A stretch of DNA of 64,000 bases from assembly GCA_011634665.1 (NCBI GenBank), contig WAEK01000020.1, positions 62,501-126,500 of the forward strand, given 5' to 3'. The DNA is from Mortierella sp. BCC40632 (Eukaryota; Mortierellomycota; Mortierellomycetes; Mortierellales; Mortierellaceae). The notes under the pieces are model-generated. The model worked only from the letters and a program-made list of their open reading frames with translations, ran no database searches and was not told where the DNA came from. Below are positions 6,510 through 28,296 of this stretch, in pieces; the stretch's first letter is position 1, and each line of letters starts with the position of its first letter. The position numbers and the translations under genes are program-made.

Positions 6510-6680
6510 CTTAATTTCAGGAGGTCCATAGTAAGCTGAGTTTTTTTTCCTTAATAGTTTTCAAGATCATTAGGGTCTTCACACTCTTGTGCAGCAAGGT
6601 CAGGAATGTTCTCTGAAGGTAGAGTAAAAAAGAACTGGCATTTTTTTTATTTTTATTCGTTGCCGAAGAGCTATTCTTCT

Positions 6681-8147
6681 TTAAACCCTTCCTGACAGAT
6701 TGAAGGAATCTTCGTTCAAACGGTGTCTGACCAAGGGGGGGGTCATATTGCTGTCCGAGTAGGATTGACTAATGACCTGAGGTTTAGAGCATAGTAGATT
6801 TTGGTCAGTGTAAGTCTTAACATTGAGACTAGCAATTACTTCTTTGACAGATTGCATACCAATTTTGTTGCCTTCGGCGTGCCTTTGTTTCATTCGGCAT
6901 TCACTTTCAACGTGACCAATCTTGAGGCAAGGTCTGTAAGTACATTCCTTGTGATCCTTCGTTATATGTGACGAGTTATCGCCACACTTAGCACAAAAAA
7001 ACAGCGATGAGCCATTTCCTTTGTTACCCGATTGGTTAGGAGAGCTCCTATTTTTCTGGAATGGGGTAAAACGATTGTTGTTCATTCGAGATCTCGTCGT
7101 GCGTTTGACGGATGAGGGTTGGCCGTTGCCCTTTCCTTCAGCGGGTGGATCATCGTAGATCTTGGTGACATCGGATCCTTCAGGACCGCGTAGTCTCTTA
7201 CATTGAGTTAACAATGAGGATAGAGACTGGAAGGATGCTGCATTCGGGTCGAAGCTGCTATAACGAGTCAGCATGATATTGTAGGCATTGGGACCAATGG
7301 CTTTCTCCAGTTGACTGAGGATAATATCATTGTCATCCTTTACACCGTAAACATGCAAGTCTCTTTCAATACGGATTGCAAAGTTCTGATATGTCTCTCG
7401 TTCAAGCATTCCGATCTTGGTTAGACGTTCCACTTCTTCATCTCGTTGATCTTGTGTCAAACAGGCATTTACGAAGACTTGACGGCAGGTTTCCCATCCT
7501 CTAGTGCCGGATGGATATGGCTTAATACCTTCCTGGAACTGGACGGCAAAGTGCTCCACCTCGATGCAGGACACCATGAGTCGCTCACATTGTCGCTCAA
7601 ATCGTTCCTCGCCCAGGTGGGCCGTAAGCAGACGGTAAAATTGGCTTAAGAAGGTTCTGGCCGTCATTTTCTTTCCGTCGTATCTAGCCACACGCTTGGG
7701 AATGTTGTCCAACACTGCGACTGTCTGCGATTTTGGACTGTCTTCGACTGATGCAATGTCTGCAGCAATATCTTGCAACTTCTTGAGGATCATTTTGGTC
7801 TTTTCATAGTCTTTTTCAGTCACGGCAATCATGACATCTAGATCTTGTCTCGCTTGGCCCTCTTGGTACCCGTCGTTGGAGTACAGATTGCTCAGCCTCT
7901 CGCCAAGTGACTTGACAGCGTCTTTGAGGCGAGCTATCTCAGTCGCAGAGTCGTGTTTGACTATATTGAGGCGTGGTCCTTGCGAAAGACCTTCGTTTGC
8001 GGTTCCACCACCAAGGTTGGTTTGGTGTCTATCCACCTCCATATCCCATTCACTGAACGAAGGGGAAGAGGGGACGTTCAAATTCTCCGTTGGCTCATTA
8101 GCCCTTGATTGAACAGGTTCAGGAATGGCAGAGACTGGGGATGACAT
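6681..8147 (-). CDS. Gypsy B gag: capsid region and zinc knuckles
   Basis: 488 codons on the minus strand. N-terminal acidic/Ser-rich part, a coiled-coil stretch (about residues 65-130), an alpha-helical capsid-like middle (about 150-335), a basic RNA-binding stretch with RTTRSRMNNNRF (about 360-390), then two Cys/His knuckles (CAKCGDNSSHITKDHKEC and CLKIGHVESEC). Gag packages the element RNA in virus-like particles. It lies between the N-terminal gag frame and the protease in normal order. Start chosen at the first ATG of the frame. Confidence 0.82.
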   Translation of the reverse strand: MSSPVSAIPEPVQSRANEPTENLNVPSSPSFSEWDMEVDRHQTNLGGGTANEGLSQGPRLNIVKHDSATEIARLKDAVKSLGERLSNLYSNDGYQEGQARQDLDVMIAVTEKDYEKTKMILKKLQDIAADIASVEDSPKSQTVAVLDNIPKRVARYDGKKMTARTFLSQFYRLLTAHLGEERFERQCERLMVSCIEVEHFAVQFQEGIKPYPSGTRGWETCRQVFVNACLTQDQRDEEVERLTKIGMLERETYQNFAIRIERDLHVYGVKDDNDIILSQLEKAIGPNAYNIMLTRYSSFDPNAASFQSLSSLLTQCKRLRGPEGSDVTKIYDDPPAEGKGNGQPSSVKRTTRSRMNNNRFTPFQKNRSSPNQSGNKGNGSSLFFCAKCGDNSSHITKDHKECTYRPCLKIGHVESECRMKQRHAEGNKIGMQSVKEVIASLNVKTYTDQNLLCSKPQVISQSYSDSNMTPPLVRHRLNEDSFNLSGRV

Positions 8148-20375: not shown

Positions 20376-21008
20376 CTAGTTCTTTGGTTTTTCATAGACC
20401 CAAATGCCCTCTTGCGAATCCTCGAGACTACAATGCAGGCCATCCAGATGCTTCAGATCAAACACCAGCGCAACAATCCGCACGCCACGCTCAAACTCCT
20501 GTTGGATCCATTGACAGAGGTCCTCGCCGCCCTCAGGAGAGAGATAGACGAAGATGACGGTCCACTCCTTGGATTGCATGGACTGCAGATCTCTCCAAGT
20601 GGTCAGATCGGCGACTTGGAACGAGACTCTTCCCTGCTGAACCAAATCAGTGGCAAGCGCGGTCGACTTTTCGACCAAATCCTGTTCGCACTCGATGCCC
20701 AGTGCAGCCTGTGCACCAAAGAGCTTGACTGCTGCATAGCAGAACCGACCGTCACCAGAGCCAACATCTAAAACTCGGTCTTTAGGCGATATCCGAGCCA
20801 TCTCGAGAGCGAGTAGGACTCTGCGGACGGAGGTGGGGATAAAGGGTGCATAGGTAGTGTCGACGCCATCGATCCAGAGCGGGAACTCTGAGGCATGCTC
20901 GTCATAGTCAGGGTACTGATTCTGGAAGAACTTGACATCCGCTTGATCCAGCGAAGCAACGGTTGTGGGCTGAGGTGACCCTGATGGAGAGGAGGCCACT
21001 GATGGCAT
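20376..21008 (-). CDS. Class I SAM-dependent methyltransferase
   Basis: 210 aa, a single exon from ATG 21008. SAM-binding motif I is DRVLDVGSGDGRFCYAA (about residues 80-96), followed by an acidic motif II position (GIECEQ) and motif III-like VSFQVADLTTW. Further on are IFVYLSPEGGEDLCQWI and a short C-terminal strand (GIWVYEK). The GSGDGRF motif and the overall size recall the small protein-lysine methyltransferases of the FAM173/ATPSCKMT type, but the substrate cannot be read from the sequence. The frame is open upstream to 21179, but that part translates a CT-rich 5' flank, so I start at 21008. The gene lies just outside the Fanzor element, whose left end is 370 bp upstream. Confidence 0.82.
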   Translation of the reverse strand: MPSVASSPSGSPQPTTVASLDQADVKFFQNQYPDYDEHASEFPLWIDGVDTTYAPFIPTSVRRVLLALEMARISPKDRVLDVGSGDGRFCYAAVKLFGAQAALGIECEQDLVEKSTALATDLVQQGRVSFQVADLTTWRDLQSMQSKEWTVIFVYLSPEGGEDLCQWIQQEFERGVRIVALVFDLKHLDGLHCSLEDSQEGIWVYEKPKN

Positions 21009-21375
21009 GGTTGAGTGAAAAGGCTGGGGGGCTGGAGGAAAGGAGTGGAAAAGAAAAGTGGGAGTGGAAGAGGAAAGGAGTGGAAGAGCGGAGAGAAGAA
21101 AAGAGAAGAAGAGAAGAGATAAAACAAAAAAAATATGAGGATGCAGTCCGCCCTTCCACTCTCCGCTCTCGGCGGTCACACAAGCACAAGACAGCCACTT
21201 ACATCACTCCATTTGCTGATGCTTGCCCTGCAAACGAGTCAGTCGTGCATACAACCAGGGTCTTTCACCCCCCTTTTGCAGCTTGTTTGACCTACTTGCC
21301 ACGCTCTGTCGCCTTTTCTCCGGGCGTCCACTCTCAGAAACTTTGCATTTGCTGATCTAGTCCTACATCACAGAC

Positions 21376-21377
21376 TA
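21376..21377. repeat. Left TA target-site duplication of the Fanzor element
   Basis: TA directly before CAGTCCGGCG. It pairs with TA at 26059-26060. Confidence 0.8.
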
Positions 21378-21425
21378 CAGTCCGGCGTCAAAAGGTGTAC
21401 AAAAATTGTACAGCTTTTGACACCC
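21378..21425 (+). repeat. Left terminal inverted repeat with hairpin
   Basis: GTCAAAAG..GTACAA..TTGTAC..CTTTTGAC (21387-21421) can fold on itself and also pairs with the right end at 26010-26058. Confidence 0.8.
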
Positions 21426-21549
21426 TCTCCAACAAACTGATTGGCTACGAAATTAAGCTAACTTCGTGACGCCACTTTTAATACAAAATACAGCTTGCTC
21501 TAGCTCCATCTAGGAGACACTCGTCTTCTTATTCACACTGTCCGTCACC

Positions 21550-24500
21550 ATGGGTTTGACCGATATTTCACAGATGCTGCGGGAATTAGATTGCAGAGGT
21601 ACTCCTACAGACCCAAGAGACCATTGTGAGGTGCATGTGGACCTGCTGTCCTGTTACTTTGGATTTATTCGGGCTTGCGACTTCAGGATTACCCGCAAGC
21701 TTTTAAAGGAGAACCACTCTCTGGACACTTTGCAAGCGTTACGGATCGAACGGTTGGCTGCTGCTCTCGACTCGAAGCTTTCCAAAGCATTCAACAAAAG
21801 CGCAATCCTACATATCGACGGCAACCCTACAAAGGAAAAGGAACATGCAAGATCCCTACGCTCAGCGATCTACAAGCAGCAGAACGACCGTCTGGAAACG
21901 CAAATTGACGATCTCAACAGGCGCTGCTCACAAATCCTGAATTCTGCGCCAGACAAGCTCATAAAATCACACATGAGAAGTCTCCGCAAGAGCTTCCGCA
22001 AGATGTTACATGCGTGGCAAAGATCTTTTCGCATCGACGACGATATGCGGCGTCGACTGGGTGCAAAGCTTGCAGCAAATGGGTGGCGGCTGTGTGAGCG
22101 GGATCCTACGTCCGGGATCTGTGTTGGCGAGGCTGACCTTTGCTGCGCCCAACTCGCCGCCCAGAAGAACGGTGAAGGCCGCGGTCCCATTGTAGTAGCC
22201 TCAGGAGACTCAGATTTCCTCGCACATGACAACATAACTTTACTTCGCCAGAATGCCAGACGCCGAACCGAGTATCGCCAATTTACTCAGCACTATGTGA
22301 TCGCGACGCTCAACATGAATAGGCCACGGCTAAGACGCTACACCAAAAAGAACCAGCATCGTGAGGAAGAATTCCCTCTCCTTAACCCGGACATCTGGAA
22401 GGTGCTAGCAACGGTGTGTCAAAACGACTATTCAACTAACGTCAAGGGCTACGGTCCAAAGAAGAACTGGGCGATTCTTGGTCAGCTTTGGGACCGAGAA
22501 GGGGTAGACACACCTCAGGAATTGCTAGCAGAATACGAGAAAGATATGGCAAAGAGAAAGTACAAAGGCGAGCCGGTCGTTGTCCCAGACTTTTCTTCGT
22601 CCGCACGGGTGTTTTTTGACCGCACGGAAACCTTGCTACCACCTTCCTCCTCACCACCCAATGCTATCCCTCATCATGATGTGATTCCTCAGATGATGGC
22701 ACTCTATGGGCGTTCGATGACCATGCTAAAAAAAGAGTTTTGTAAAGGTCCACCCCATACACTACAGTCGGATCTCAAGAAAGCCAAGTATACGCGACAC
22801 TTTCGAACAAGTAACAGCCAGTTCAAACCCCGTTGGATTAAGTTGCCACAGTGGAATGAACTACCGCCAAGACCGCCATCGAAAGTTCCCACCCCCCCTT
22901 CAGAGCGAAAACCTCAAAAACAATCCAAACAGGTTAGTGTGCATCCGAATTGATCAGCACGCATACAACTTGCGCAGCTATGATACTTATCATCGCTTTG
23001 ATACCATCAGGAGCGCGTTAAGGCTAGCATCAACAGTGAGTCTGCCCTTCCTGACAAAGGAAAAAAGAGAAAAGCAGAGGTAGGACAGTAGATATTGGTA
23101 GTGCTTGCCGTGACCATCAACCACACGTGTTTCTCATCTCTCTCTCTCTCTCTTTCTCCTCTTTTTTTTTTTTTTTTTTTTGTTGATAGGAGCCAGAGCA
23201 GGGCATTCCCTCAAGTAAACCCAAGACAAAACGATCAAAACCTAAAGTCGACAAGACGAGCCGCGCATCAAGGGAGACAAATTGCCGACAGGAGAGGATC
23301 GCCCAGGCAGCCGCTGAAGGGACGGATCCTAAGATCCAAGAACGCTGCCACAATCTTGGATCAATTATCAACGACGTGTTGAAATCCCTCTGCGAGACGG
23401 TAACTCTCTCCAAAGGTGACACCCGTCATCTACTGACGACCCACATGGCGGTGAATCTAAGACCTTCGGTGGAGGCATACGTCGCAGCCGGTCACGCATT
23501 GGACTTCAAGCAATCGCCTGATGATGACCAGTCTACACTTTGTGACCATGTCATATCCGCCCTGAAAGAGGATATCGAGGACACTCTCACCCAAATTTCA
23601 CGACTTTACACGGATCTCAGACGGATTTGCATTTATGCTACCGAGTATTACATCTCCAAGATCATGGCCGAGCATTCCGACATCGGACACCGTGAACAAC
23701 GGATGCGTGCCTTCCAGGCCGTGTTGAAGGGCCAAGATTTTTTCCGGGCACTAGCCGTTGCTCTGTACAATCCTAGCCGAATGAGAGATGTACGAGTCAA
23801 AGAGGATTCAGCGCTGGCAAGACAGATTGCAGCCACATTTGAACTGGATTTTGGTGCTGCCGCACAGAAAGTTCTCGAGAGAGTTCGCAAGCTGCTGGAT
23901 GGCACTGTCCATATGCACGTTATCGAGGAGATCGCCCGTAATACTAGTGACGGGATTCGAACTCAGGCGCAACACTTTATCACGACCTTAAAGTCACGGG
24001 TAAGTTGTTTCTTTGACAGAGCGATGTAGCTTATCAACTTGCCTGTAGCTAACCGTCTTCAACCTTTTCTAGGTGATTGAACAAGCTCCCGAATGGGCCA
24101 ACACCACCGGAAAGCCGATGCTGGATGCAATTGACAAAAATGGTCAAAGCAAGCGAGACGACCTTTTGTCCACCAATTGGTTTCTGAACTCCGTTCTTCC
24201 AGAGGACTGTCGAATTGCCCTGTACCCCCGATCATCCTGGAGCAACGCCTTTGTCTGTCTCAGTGAGGCAAACATAATCCACTCACTCAAGCGCAGAAGA
24301 CTGACGCCGGAAAAAAAAGCATTGATCCCGGTGTATAATCACCTTTTTGGCAATGGCACAGCGTATGCTGAGCACCGTGGCCAGCTGATCTACGACCTCT
24401 TCTTTGGAGGCACAAAGACGAATTACGATCGGACCACAGCGGTGGCACATCCACTCCACTCTGACCGAACACCAGCAGTCTTGGACTTGAGTGAGCCGAG

Positions 24501-25895
24501 CCTCAGCACTGTAGCACACAAGGTTTGTCATGGTGTAGACCGAGCTGAACAACGGCTTGGACAGCCGAGTTCAAGAATGCCATTAAGCAGGACATCGTGT
24601 CGCGTGGTGAGGAGCCCCATCACAGCAAAGGACGTCGTCTCAAGTACATACTAGAAGGGACTCTCCAAACGAATGGCCAACAGGTCAAAGTGCAGGCGGC
24701 TCATTTGTGGCATAGGTGGCCCAGGAAGAAAGTGGCCGACACTGGCAACTCATCTTCAGTTTCCTCAACGACCTCTACACTCTCCACGCTCACCTCCGAA
24801 GGCCAAACAAAAGACTGGAGACCAGAACACCGACAATCGCACATCGATTACATTCAACAGTGTCTCCCTGACCAGGCCGCCGTGCAATGTCTATTTCCCG
24901 GCCAGTCAGAATTCATTGTTACGGCCGTTGATCCAGGAGCTAAAAAGACAGCATGCTCGGCAACGATTGACACACTCGACCCGGATCATGTCTCGATCGT
25001 CGATGTCCCAAGGGCAAACCTATCGTTCGCTGAGGAGCTCTACAGGAAAAGGATGGAGTATGCGAAGCAGAACGCCATCTACGATGGCAAGGACATTCAC
25101 ACGATTGAGTGTGAGCTGGTAAAATTCACACTACCGCCTCCACAGGCTTCGCCTCTTGAATCTTTCCATCAAGTCTTCGCAGAGGCGAAGACGAACATGA
25201 CGACTCATATTGAACGTGAGCTCAAAGCAGACCCGGTCCTTAGCGATTTTTATGGGTCACCTCGGTTGCGTTTCTGGCGATACCAGAAGGAGGAAGGCAG
25301 ACGGGCGGACACTGGCCGAGCTATAGCCAGTCTTCTCAAGAATGCCCAAAAAAAATCTCTGGTCAAAGCTCAAGACAAAGAGGAGAGGCGGGCACTCTTA
25401 GCCATTGGTGATGGCAAATTTGGGAGTTTGCCGGGTATTCATGATAAGTCGGGAGGCTTTCGTTATCAACTTATCCAAGAGGTGAGAAAGCTTTTTCAGC
25501 TGTCGAGACAAAAATATGAAGTGGATGTTCATAACAAACAGTCGTTAACCCACTGGGAATAGGCCAAAGGGAGGGCAATGGTAGTGGTTTTGGTCAACGA
25601 ATTTAGGTCCTCTATAACTTGTAGTCGTTGTCGTGGACCTACCAAGGCCTTCGGCAGGAATCTCATCTGCTTGAGCCCAACGTGTGGTGGGGCACGTACA
25701 GAAGAGCAGAGCGCGATCGCTGGTCTGAGTTCCACCACTGGTCCCATGTGCGACAGAGATCACAATGCGGCACTGAACTTGGCGCGAGCAAGCCTGCAAC
25801 AAATTCAGGAACACTCTTGGCCAGTTGAGCTGCAGCGGGTCAGGGCAATAAGTCTGGAGAATGACGATGCCATTTTGGCAAGTGCCGACGTATAG
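21550..25895 (+). CDS. XPG/FEN1-like nuclease fused to a Fanzor (eukaryotic TnpB) nuclease
   Basis: Six exons (21550-22932, 23011-23079, 23190-23999, 24073-24490, 24565-25481, 25563-25895) have GT-AG borders and join in phase into 1,309 aa without a stop. Residues 1-310 look like an XPG/FEN1 nuclease: D31, D90 (HIDGNP), E194/D196 (GEADLC), D220/D222 (SGDSDF), and D293 in a helix-hairpin-helix-like LATVCQNDYSTNVKGYGPK. These correspond to the seven metal-binding acids of FEN1. Residues about 475-505 are Lys-rich and NLS-like (KGKKRKAEEPE, KPKTKRSKPKVDK). Residues about 750-1309 resemble Fanzor/TnpB: RuvC-I D1016 (VTAVDPGAKK), IGDGKF, RuvC-II E1212 (VLVNEFRSS), zinc finger C1219/C1222 and C1235/C1240, RuvC-III DRDHNAALNLA (D1263/D1265). 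Fanzors are RNA-guided DNA nucleases in eukaryotes. The role of the XPG domain is unknown. Start: ATG in an ACCATGG context. Confidence 0.88.
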
Positions 25896-26058
25896 GCGTT
25901 GGCGCAAAATTTACGGTGTAAGTGCCTCAATTAGTTTGTTCATCAGTCAATCAAACTGCTGACTATTCTAACCCTCTTTTTTGCTTAACTTCCAACCAAC
26001 CACAATGCTAGGATGAAGTGTCAAAAGGAGTACAATTTTTGTACAACTTCTGACACTG
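25896..26058 (+). ncRNA. Candidate guide-RNA (omega/fRNA) region of the Fanzor element
   Basis: The 163 nt from the stop codon to the right end of the element. In characterised TnpB and Fanzor elements the guide RNA comes from the 3' end of the gene and runs to the element end, with the guide taken from flanking DNA. The region ends in the stable palindrome AGTGTC..GACACT (26017-26057). The position is by analogy only; no transcript evidence can be read here. Confidence 0.35.
26010..26058 (+). repeat. Right terminal inverted repeat with hairpin
   Basis: The AGTGTCAAAAG..GTACAA..TTGTAC..CTTCTGACACT palindrome (26017-26057), the inverse counterpart of 21378-21425. Confidence 0.8.
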
Positions 26059-26060
26059 TA

Positions 26061-26180
26061 CTGTACAGCAAAAAAAATTTTTTTTTGCTGAAAAACATAA
26101 GAAGTTCAGCAAAAAAAATTGAGTTGAAAAATATAAGCGGGGTAATCTAAAATGTTTGGTGGAAATAAGTGCTCTCATCC
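26061..26180. repeat. Left TIR of the pogo-like element
   Basis: Contains two copies of a TTCAGCAAAAAAAATT-type subrepeat and ends GTGCTCTCATCC; it is mirrored at 28178-28296. Confidence 0.92.
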
Positions 26181-26240
26181 CATGCTTTCCCCCCCCCTCG
26201 GATTGCTGAAAATGCTGAAAATGCTGAAAATGCTGAAAAT

Positions 26241-28206
26241 CTACTGCAGAAAAGAGTCTTTATTATTACCCCTATCTACCATCTTTTCAAAATCATATCG
26301 AAAGAGTAGTTCTTTCAGCTCTTCTCGTAGTGCTTTATCCACGCAGCGTTTATCTCTCACCGCCTCGAGTCCCTTAAAGATACTGTCCCATTTCTCTGGG
26401 GTTGTATTGACGCTTGAGATCGCCTCACGTTTGGGGGTAATATTTCTCATTAAAGTGATCTTGGCCTCTTCGATGGCCAGCTCTTGTTCTGTGGGTTGGT
26501 AGTGGCCATTTCCGATAACCTCGCCTTTGACTTTTGCTACAATCTGTTCAAAAAATGCCTTCTCTAATTTCTCCAGTTTAATATTAACTTGAGGCTCCAC
26601 TGGACGATGGGCCTCTTCTCCTTCAGAGATAGGCCACTGACGAAGCTCTTCTTCTTCAATGCATCAGAGATGGTAGGCGTCTTCGCCCAGCAATGCCGGA
26701 CAGTTGTTGGTTTGATGTGGGTCCACGCATAGGGAATCAACGTCCATGCCTCGCCACTTGAAGGATTTTTTTCGACCATGCGGGCAATGGATGTACGGCG
26801 GGTAAGAGACTTCAGGTAAAAGTGCTTGAAGACAGCAATGATCCCTTGATCAAGCGGCTGTGTAATAGCAGTAGAGTTGGGAGGGAGTCGTTCGACTCTA
26901 AGATGAGTCAATTCCTTCCCTCGTACCAATTGACTTCTCCATCTTTATGTTGAGGTGCCGAGTCCATAAGCAGGAGAGTGCTTTTTGTTAGTTGGCTATC
27001 AAACTTATCGAGCCATTTTATGAAGGTAGGACTTGTCATCCATCCGCTATCTGTCTTGTGCACCGCCATCGGTACTCGTTCGTCGTGAATGATATTCCTA
27101 GCAATGTGCTTTGCTACTCGGTGGTGTTAGCAATTGTTTTAAGACCCAACAATTTGAACTATTGCGCACATATTGGCCGGTATGACTTACAAATGATGAG
27201 CGGTTGCAGTGAATCCATCTCTTTCTGCTTTAATAGCGACGAGCCCGTTGCGTTAACACAAAACATGGCAGTTACCCTCGAGTTCCTTGCTGGTTTGCTA
27301 CCAGCTTTAAACTCGGGTGTCGTGAGAGACCGCGTGACAAGCTCTGTCAGATGGAACCCGCACTCGTCGCAATTGTAGATGTCTTCTGGGTCATATTGGT
27401 CACAGATATCTCGAAGCTCTTGAAGCCGAGGCTGGATTGCAGGAACGTCTACGGAGCCTGCTTGACCATGGAGTTGGACGTATGCAACATCGTATTTCTC
27501 TTTGAAAGCCGTGAAAAAAGAACTGGATAGCGATTTGGTATTTTTCAGTGTTTGGTGGCCATCTTCTCGCAAAATAATTAGAAACAGGTTGCCGGCATCC
27601 TTTAAAGACGTTCCGTTGACGGGTAGATTTTGTTTGCGTTGGCAGATGAGCCATTCGTAAGAGACTCCATTAGTAGTTCATCTTTTGATTTGACCACATT
27701 GAGTGCGCCTGAAGGGAGACGGCGCGAGGCTTCGGATATCTCTTTGTGGTTTCTCAACCAAACAGAAAACGTCGTCTGTTTAATGTTGTAAAGCTTGCAA
27801 AAGGTTTCTTGACTCCAGGCCCGCAAAGTTTTAGGATCCTCAGAGGCACGCCTGTTGTGGGCCAGGAACTGGGCCACCAAAGCAGTTTTTTCCTCGAGCG
27901 AATATCTAACCTTGGAGGAGGCGTGCGTTGCAGCGGGTACTATGATATCCTGGAGTTGTCGGTTCTTCTTTGCATCTTCAATCTGCCAAGCAACCAGCTG
28001 AGCTCGTCGTTCTTGGAATACACTGAGGTCTGCTTGTGAGAGCTCTTTCTCGCTGACAGGCGCAAGCGCGCGAGCTCGCTTAGTACTGTAAGATCTGGTC
28101 TGCTGTTTTTGGTCATCTGGTAGCAGATGAGGGTGAGGGTGATGAAGACTGTTGGAATGCAATGACAATGAGGGAGGGGATGAGAGCACTTATTTCCACC
28201 AAACAT
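26241..28206 (-). pseudogene. pogo/Tigger DDE transposase, frameshifted
   Basis: Segments in order: N-terminal basic part and an HTH-like region (YSLEEKTALVAQFLAHNRRA; FCKLYNIKQTTFSVWL); CENP-B-type second HTH (ICQRKQNLPVNGTSLKDAG); DDE core with first Asp in IYNCDECGFHL, second in LLLMDSAPQHK, and LPPNSTAITQPLDQGIIAVF; C-terminal helical part (EELRQWPISEGEE onward). One intron fits at about 27182-27105 (GTAAGT..TAG). The reading frame breaks at about 27655, 26925 and 26655, in each case needing a one- or two-base correction, so this copy cannot encode a full transposase. In its family the enzyme inserts at TA. Confidence 0.87.
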
Positions 28207-28296
28207 TTTAGATTACCCCGCTTATATTTTTCAACTCAATTTTTTTTGCTGAACTTCTTATGTTTTTCAGCAAAAAAAAAAATTTTTGCTGTACAG
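28178..28296. repeat. Right TIR of the pogo-like element
   Basis: Inverse copy of 26061-26180; it differs mainly in the length of the A/T runs next to the end. Confidence 0.92.

Follow-up and report, generated by a model that had tools for sequence, protein, structure and literature searches.

Fanzors, the RNA-guided nucleases of eukaryotes, attract interest as tools for genome editing, and the service they render to their transposons is unsettled. A locus in a stretch of 64,000 nucleotides from Mortierella sp. BCC40632 (hereafter the window) raises the question of whether a Fanzor is joined here in one polypeptide to a second, XPG/FEN1-like nuclease, and what such a protein would do. The sequence-only reading of this DNA had proposed one intact gene of six exons encoding both nucleases. 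We read the locus as a copy of a multi-copy terminal inverted repeat (TIR) transposon that has no transposase of its own and encodes a conserved XPG/FEN1-Fanzor1 fusion; the identity of the fusion element and its conservation are close to certain in our assessment. With less confidence, we lean towards a fuller account in which RNA-guided cutting is followed by processing of the break. The features of the locus are as follows (positions in the window).

21374..21377, + strand: ACTA at the left junction (AC of the flank plus TA), a candidate TAM; AC stands before TA in 5/5 copies.
21376..26065, + strand: whole element, a subfamily 1 XPG-Fanzor transposon with TA at both ends; exact common ends and differing flanks in four copies, inverted repeats.
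21376..21423, + strand: left terminal inverted repeat, a palindrome in its own right; complementarity of 85% with the right repeat.
21550..22932, + strand: exon 1, XPG/FEN1-like domain (residues 1 to ~360) and start of the linker; fold matches and acidic residues.
23011..23079, + strand: exon 2, basic linker; exon joining.
23190..23999, + strand: exon 3, last stretch of the linker and start of the Fanzor half, with an approximate boundary; joining and alignment.
24073..24522, + strand: exon 4, Fanzor half; joining and alignment.
24523..24569, + strand: doubtful intron 4, more likely coding with a one-base frameshift near 24559; sister copies and alignment with the Actinomortierella ambigua protein P0001.
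24570..25481, + strand: exon 5, RuvC D1025 and a TNG motif where Fanzor1 has its WED motif; alignments.
25563..25895, + strand: exon 6, E1221, zinc finger (TNB), RuvC D1272/D1274 and stop codon; profile match and alignments.
25896..26065, + strand: 3' non-coding end including the right repeat, candidate omega-RNA scaffold; folding and subfamily 2 islands.
26018..26065, + strand: right terminal inverted repeat, predicted hairpin; repeat match and RNA folding.

Joining of the open reading frames gave six exons that splice in phase 0 and encode a stop-free protein of 1318 residues. The proposal of one intact six-exon gene stood as regards this joining, but one base missing near 24559 puts intron 4 in doubt. 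The window copy is one base short at about this position relative to three sister copies, and the region of intron 4 is coding in both P0001 and subfamily 2A. Because the sister copies have the extra base and P0001 codes there, the alignments indicate that intron 4 is probably a frameshift inside one long exon. A genuine intron was dropped as the most likely reading, the sequence being coding and in frame in the three sister copies and P0001; a 47-nucleotide splice bypassing the frameshift is possible, as an optional event at best. The length of 1,309 residues given earlier must reflect another splice choice, and the RuvC residue numbers used here are therefore those of the earlier reading plus nine. 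All three sister copies contain other frame-shifting indels within exons, some of which lie in base runs and may thus represent decay or assembly error.

The proposed search for the same fusion in other fungi gave proteins from three named genera, P0001 from Actinomortierella ambigua, P0002 from Entomortierella lignicola and P0003 from Dissophora globulifera, in protein-database searches that each scored the ~8000 best candidates. P0003 is partial at its start, and in P0002 the Fanzor half was recognized via alignment with the genomic locus L047 and P0003 only. Actinomortierella and Dissophora belong to the Mortierellaceae according to a taxonomy look-up, and Entomortierella is a member of the same family. 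A subfamily 2A query gave no homologue at E 0.01 among 7988 protein-database candidates scored, and P0001 had no match among viral contigs in a search that detects close relatives only.

The XPG half was identified from its predicted fold, for which Foldseek and VIA-align give FEN1/EXO1, with identities of ~14-17% in most structural matches; the earlier XPG/FEN1 assignment of the N-terminal part is borne out by this comparison. A sequence search of the PDB with this half returned no related chain, and the identification therefore needed a fold. The XPG half of P0002 has a predicted fold of fair confidence. A profile search of the N-terminal part, as suggested previously, did reveal an XPG_I_2 match, but at 20.1 bits against a cut-off of 24.2, and none of the curated XPG_N and XPG_I profiles exceeded its cut-off (XPG_I 17.1 for P0002 and 17.3 for L047 vs 24.9). 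The seven acidic residues listed in the sequence-only reading (D31, D90, E194, D196, D220, D222 and D293) are all present and do not vary when the window protein is aligned with P0001 (61% identity) and a 2A member (26%); P0002 has Gly at the first of these positions. We take these residues to match the acidic positions in FEN1 numbering, and the NDY..G.G.K region presumably resembles a helix-two-turn-helix. Structural modelling supports an XPG/FEN1 (Rad2)-type nuclease fold for the N-terminal half, with putative flap or junction cutting.

The Fanzor half contains the RuvC residues D1025, E1221, D1272 and D1274, which are the D1016, E1212 and D1263/D1265 reported earlier and are invariant in the window protein, P0001 and the 2A member. 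Among six aligned Fanzor halves, the RuvC-I Asp (D1025), the Glu preceding the TNB (E1221) and the RuvC-III Arg-Asp (D1274) are all invariant, and E1221 occupies the place of the catalytic Glu of Fanzor as described in the available text of PMC11423790. The profile check proposed for the C-terminal part gave a match to PF07282 (Cas12f1-like_TNB) narrowly above the cut-off of 26.3 for the window protein (26.5), with scores of 28.1 for P0001 and 50.1 for P0003. No match to the TNB profile was obtained for P0002, whose annotated C-terminus is odd, and one TNB Cys is absent from subfamily 2A. A TDG motif has been described in the WED domain of Fanzor1 (PMC10711439, available part); TDG is present in 2A and L050 and the variant TNG in the window, P0003 and L047, the WED domain being assigned by position only. 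Among PDB chains, a six-member profile matched the TnpB-like L79 (1.6e-7) and SpuFz1 (0.0028), the SpuFz1 match lying in the TNB part. The model of the P0002 Fanzor half has pLDDT values mostly <50, too low for a fold search. These sequence features support the assignment of the C-terminal half to Fanzor, with putative RNA-guided cutting.

The fusion is not the isolated oddity it had seemed, a view ruled out by further paired XPG and Fanzor loci found across searches of the same genome. All 12 loci read from subfamilies 2A, 2B and 2C have an XPG piece and a Fanzor piece on the same strand and in the expected order. The 2A elements have an inverted repeat, TATCCCTTAAACCG, which again comes with TA, occurs at both ends in four of six loci and is unrelated to the subfamily 1 repeat beginning TACAGT.., whereas for 2B elements the right end alone was found. 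Subfamily 3 (L047) has its own XPG domain and a Fanzor half with NEYYTSKRCPKC. The subfamilies are ~20-32% identical and have the same domain order.

The genome searches score the best candidates only, so the locus counts are lower bounds. A same-strand XPG match lies within 5 kb upstream at 30 of the 48 sites found with the Pfam TNB profile alone, downstream at three and on the opposite strand at none; at the other 18 this 5-kb upstream stretch lacks an XPG match, and two of the 30 (C1:558958 and C7:2774957) represent another Fanzor-like gene adjoining a 2B element. When matches to fusion queries were added and near matches merged, 36 of 59 loci were paired (five downstream, one on the opposite strand; ~0.16 expected from densities), a count biased towards fusions because its Fanzor rows come partly from these queries. 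Both lists draw on 33 of 34 rows (the one left out being a match to the linker only), 50 of 50 and 48 of 48 rows of the match tables, and the 59-locus list also on 17 entries from 23 rows and on 24 of 74 rows of further match tables. The XPG loci L034, L036 and L038 are unpaired in the 59-locus list, yet have Fanzor matches by tblastn. Inspection of four loci, of which L048, L050 and L053 lack a paired XPG match, revealed XPG remnants upstream of L048, L049 and L053 and none upstream of L050. The counts support the XPG-Fanzor fusion as the commoner Fanzor arrangement in this genome.

Trees of the XPG and Fanzor halves of eight members are identical in topology, the grouping of P0002 with L047 being weak in both (68 and 51), and distances in the two halves are correlated (r 0.93; 0/5000 permutations as high). 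Between 2A and 2B, dN/dS is 0.15 in the XPG half and 0.12-0.20 in four Fanzor segments, at NG86 dS values of 1.2-1.5, near saturation; in the linker exon it is 0.36. The low dN/dS is a feature of the comparison between subfamilies; the four copies of the young subfamily 1 set yield small counts, in which nonsynonymous differences are not rare (window vs C4: 10 synonymous and 14 nonsynonymous codons in the XPG exon, 14 and 12, respectively, in the Fanzor exons). Since the trees agree, the distances correlate and dN/dS between 2A and 2B is low, the XPG-Fanzor join is old and has been inherited as a unit. The fusion, its age, its joint inheritance, its conserved active sites and its past transposition are computed results.

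The similarity among the window, C4, C9 and C24 copies stops at the inverted repeats, and their flanks are unlike. The window copy is 98.4-98.7% identical to the other three, which are 99.3-99.5% identical to one another; at 98.4-99.5% identity, the subfamily 1 copies have therefore moved recently. All four start and end with TA, and no empty site was seen for comparison. AC precedes the left TA in all five copies with the left end read, and 137 of the 2495 TA in the window overall. The right flanks of the subfamily 1 copies have no obvious common sequence, and a motif on one side only looks as a TAM would; on the strength of five subfamily 1 copies, the left-junction ACTA may be such a TAM. 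This AC before TA is not shared by the left flanks of 2A elements.

Reading the frames of the 4.69-kb element (21376-26065) by eye, together with a profile scan of the fusion protein, revealed no transposase. The DDE_1 gene next door belongs to a separate element, and the neighbouring pogo-like transposase was rejected as mobiliser, its ends, CAGCAAAAAAAATT, being unlike those of the element. A transposase-bearing element with the same inverted repeat was also sought and not found; of 12 zero-mismatch matches to the repeat pattern, 11 mark the ends of copies of the fusion element and the twelfth is a lone site on C3.

The 3' end of the element may represent an omega-RNA scaffold that stops at the transposon end. 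Two islands are conserved between L033 (2A) and L041 (2B) from the stop codon to the right end (28/32 and 36/38 columns), with 52/90 columns conserved between them. The islands hold two hairpins, one of 7 pairs, with one pair seen as C-G, U-G and U-A, and the other within the right repeat; the right repeat of the window copy is likewise predicted to fold as a hairpin. Taken in its entirety, the 3' end gave no significant RNA structure against shuffled sequence (z -1.34, 0.38 and -0.78), and the covariation comes from a single pair, with 206/500 shuffles as high.

Fanzor is RNA-guided, and the 3' flank of its omega-RNA supplies the guide (PMC10432273). In the proposed mechanism, the 3' end of the element would give rise to the omega-RNA and the right flank would serve as the guide. 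The RuvC half would cut element-free sites, either the empty donor site or the allele, beside an ACTA-like motif at the left junction, and the FEN1/EXO1-like half would then trim 5' flaps or resect 5' ends. Such 5'-end processing would shift repair away from end joining and towards copying in the element. By analogy with characterized enzymes, RNA-guided cutting by the Fanzor half is likely, whereas the resection or flap role of the XPG half is a tentative suggestion. That the whole constitutes a fungal Fanzor clade with a built-in flap/5'-end nuclease, acting as a one-protein cut-and-resect machine for self-homing with no transposase of its own, is conceivable and at present doubtful.

The XPG half may instead act on RNA or on the R-loop, trimming the omega-RNA or mRNA or nicking the bubble junction and so altering the break rather than resecting it. 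Enzymes of the FEN1/XPG family act on bubble and flap structures, both kinds of junction are offered by an R-loop, and one polypeptide holds both the XPG domain and the R-loop maker. Resection or flap removal is preferred to R-loop nicking because the nearest folds are EXO1 and FEN1 and because of what is generally known of these enzymes. The Fanzor1 proteins of PMC10432273 and PMC11423790, moreover, cut by means of REC, WED, RuvC and TNB, no XPG-type domain being named in the available parts of these papers, and an action on RNA or the R-loop is rather unlikely. The lack of a visible transposase in the element, together with ends that are both palindromic and hairpin-capable, would also suit an XPG half that processes inverted-repeat ends or hairpins at excision, the fusion replacing the missing transposase. 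This is quite improbable: two subfamilies have unrelated repeats, TACAGT.. and TATCCCTTAAACCG.., with TA at the ends of each, which is more like the borrowing of different Tc1/mariner-type transposases, and FEN1-type enzymes are not known to join strands.

Introns or frame gaps separate the XPG and Fanzor exons in the subfamilies read, as they would if the halves were two adjacent genes with separate transcripts and the join an annotation artefact. Such an artefact is very improbable, however, as the linker exon is coding in 2A and 2B (dN/dS 0.36), the three annotated proteins from other records span both halves, and the window exons join in phase 0. The single polypeptide proposed from the sequence is upheld by these annotated proteins of three named species, the agreeing XPG and Fanzor trees and the coding linker exon of subfamily 2. 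It is also improbable, if slightly less so than a mobility role of the XPG half, that the fusion was formerly functional and has now decayed, its conserved residues mirroring past selection. The frame-shifting indels of subfamily 1, the broken reading frames of several subfamily 2 copies and the nonsynonymous differences among young copies would agree with decay, but the near identity of these copies indicates recent movement, the base-run indels could be assembly errors, and dN/dS is low in both halves between subfamilies. Cutting followed by 5'-end processing in a single conserved protein is the reading retained here.

The fusion resembles Fanzor1 (SpuFz1, GtFz1 and PpFz1) in the RuvC Asp, the Glu before the zinc-binding TNB, the second Asp in the next helix and the TDG/TNG motif, and in being the sole cargo of a TIR transposon, but is longer by ~500 N-terminal residues, which hold a second nuclease site. 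It shares the fold and seven acidic residues with FEN1, EXO1 and XPG (Rad2 family), whereas its XPG half sits in a transposon protein. Academ transposons encode an XPG-like nuclease together with a transposase and helicase; an XPG-type nuclease in a DNA transposon is the sole common feature, the fusion pairing it with an RNA-guided-type nuclease and no transposase. TnpB of IS200/IS605 and IS607 has a similar TNB/RuvC protein end, but is prokaryotic and short and is not known to have an XPG domain. Tc1/mariner elements carrying Fanzor1 have been described (PMC3627910); as far as the available part of that paper goes, their TIR ends are bounded by TA like those of the present element, in which, unlike in them, no DDE transposase was seen. 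No mention of XPG was found in the available parts of four Fanzor papers (PMC3627910, PMC10432273, PMC10711439 and PMC11423790), and among 5.39 million papers searched for the two terms, none pairs Fanzor with XPG. The XPG-Fanzor fusion is thus likely to be new to the literature.

A natural fusion to a FEN1/EXO1-type nuclease that has been conserved for so long indicates that selection has held break processing together with putative RNA-guided cutting. It offers Fanzor biology a testable idea, the copying in of the element after a guided break, and shows, in a natural protein, how an editor able to bias repair might be designed.

On its right side, the XPG-Fanzor element in the window is directly adjoined by a pogo/Tigger-like element with ends CAGCAAAAAAAATT, and a methyltransferase-like open reading frame lies immediately to its left.

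Window 20376-21203, minus strand: methyltransferase-like open reading frame, which matches Methyltransf_31 above the cut-off
Window 26066-28291, minus strand: pogo/Tigger-like element, whose DDE_1 match exceeds the cut-off while its HTH_Tnp_Tc5 match falls slightly short

The terminal TA of the XPG-Fanzor element is apparently the insertion point of the pogo/Tigger-like element.

At other loci of the same genome, the subfamily 2B elements L041 and L043 are located next to or within another Fanzor-like gene, and a transposase-like gene with a SWIM-type motif also adjoins them. Both genes are named by their motifs.

L041, oriented 6542-7218: right flank, Fanzor-like/transposase-like gene region beside the 2B element
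L043, oriented 6780-7653: right flank, Fanzor-like/transposase-like gene region beside the 2B element
L047, oriented 1073-1564: second Fanzor-type C-terminal piece, upstream of the subfamily 3 gene, sequence LTDEFRTSQTCAEC
L044, oriented 1785-2820: further diverged XPG domain (28% identity), with no Fanzor match beside it in the 8.5 kb read

In P0002, the annotated fusion protein of Entomortierella lignicola, the XPG domain contains Gly (LVG) in place of the first catalytic Asp and the zinc ribbon is missing from the annotated C-terminus, which reflects either decay or a wrong gene model.

Elsewhere in the genome carrying the window, AACAGTAAGGGGTCAGAAG occurs on many contigs in frequent same-strand pairs spaced approximately 5 kb apart (e.g., C4:344408 and C4:349385), a spacing and strand arrangement that resembles the repeats of an LTR element.
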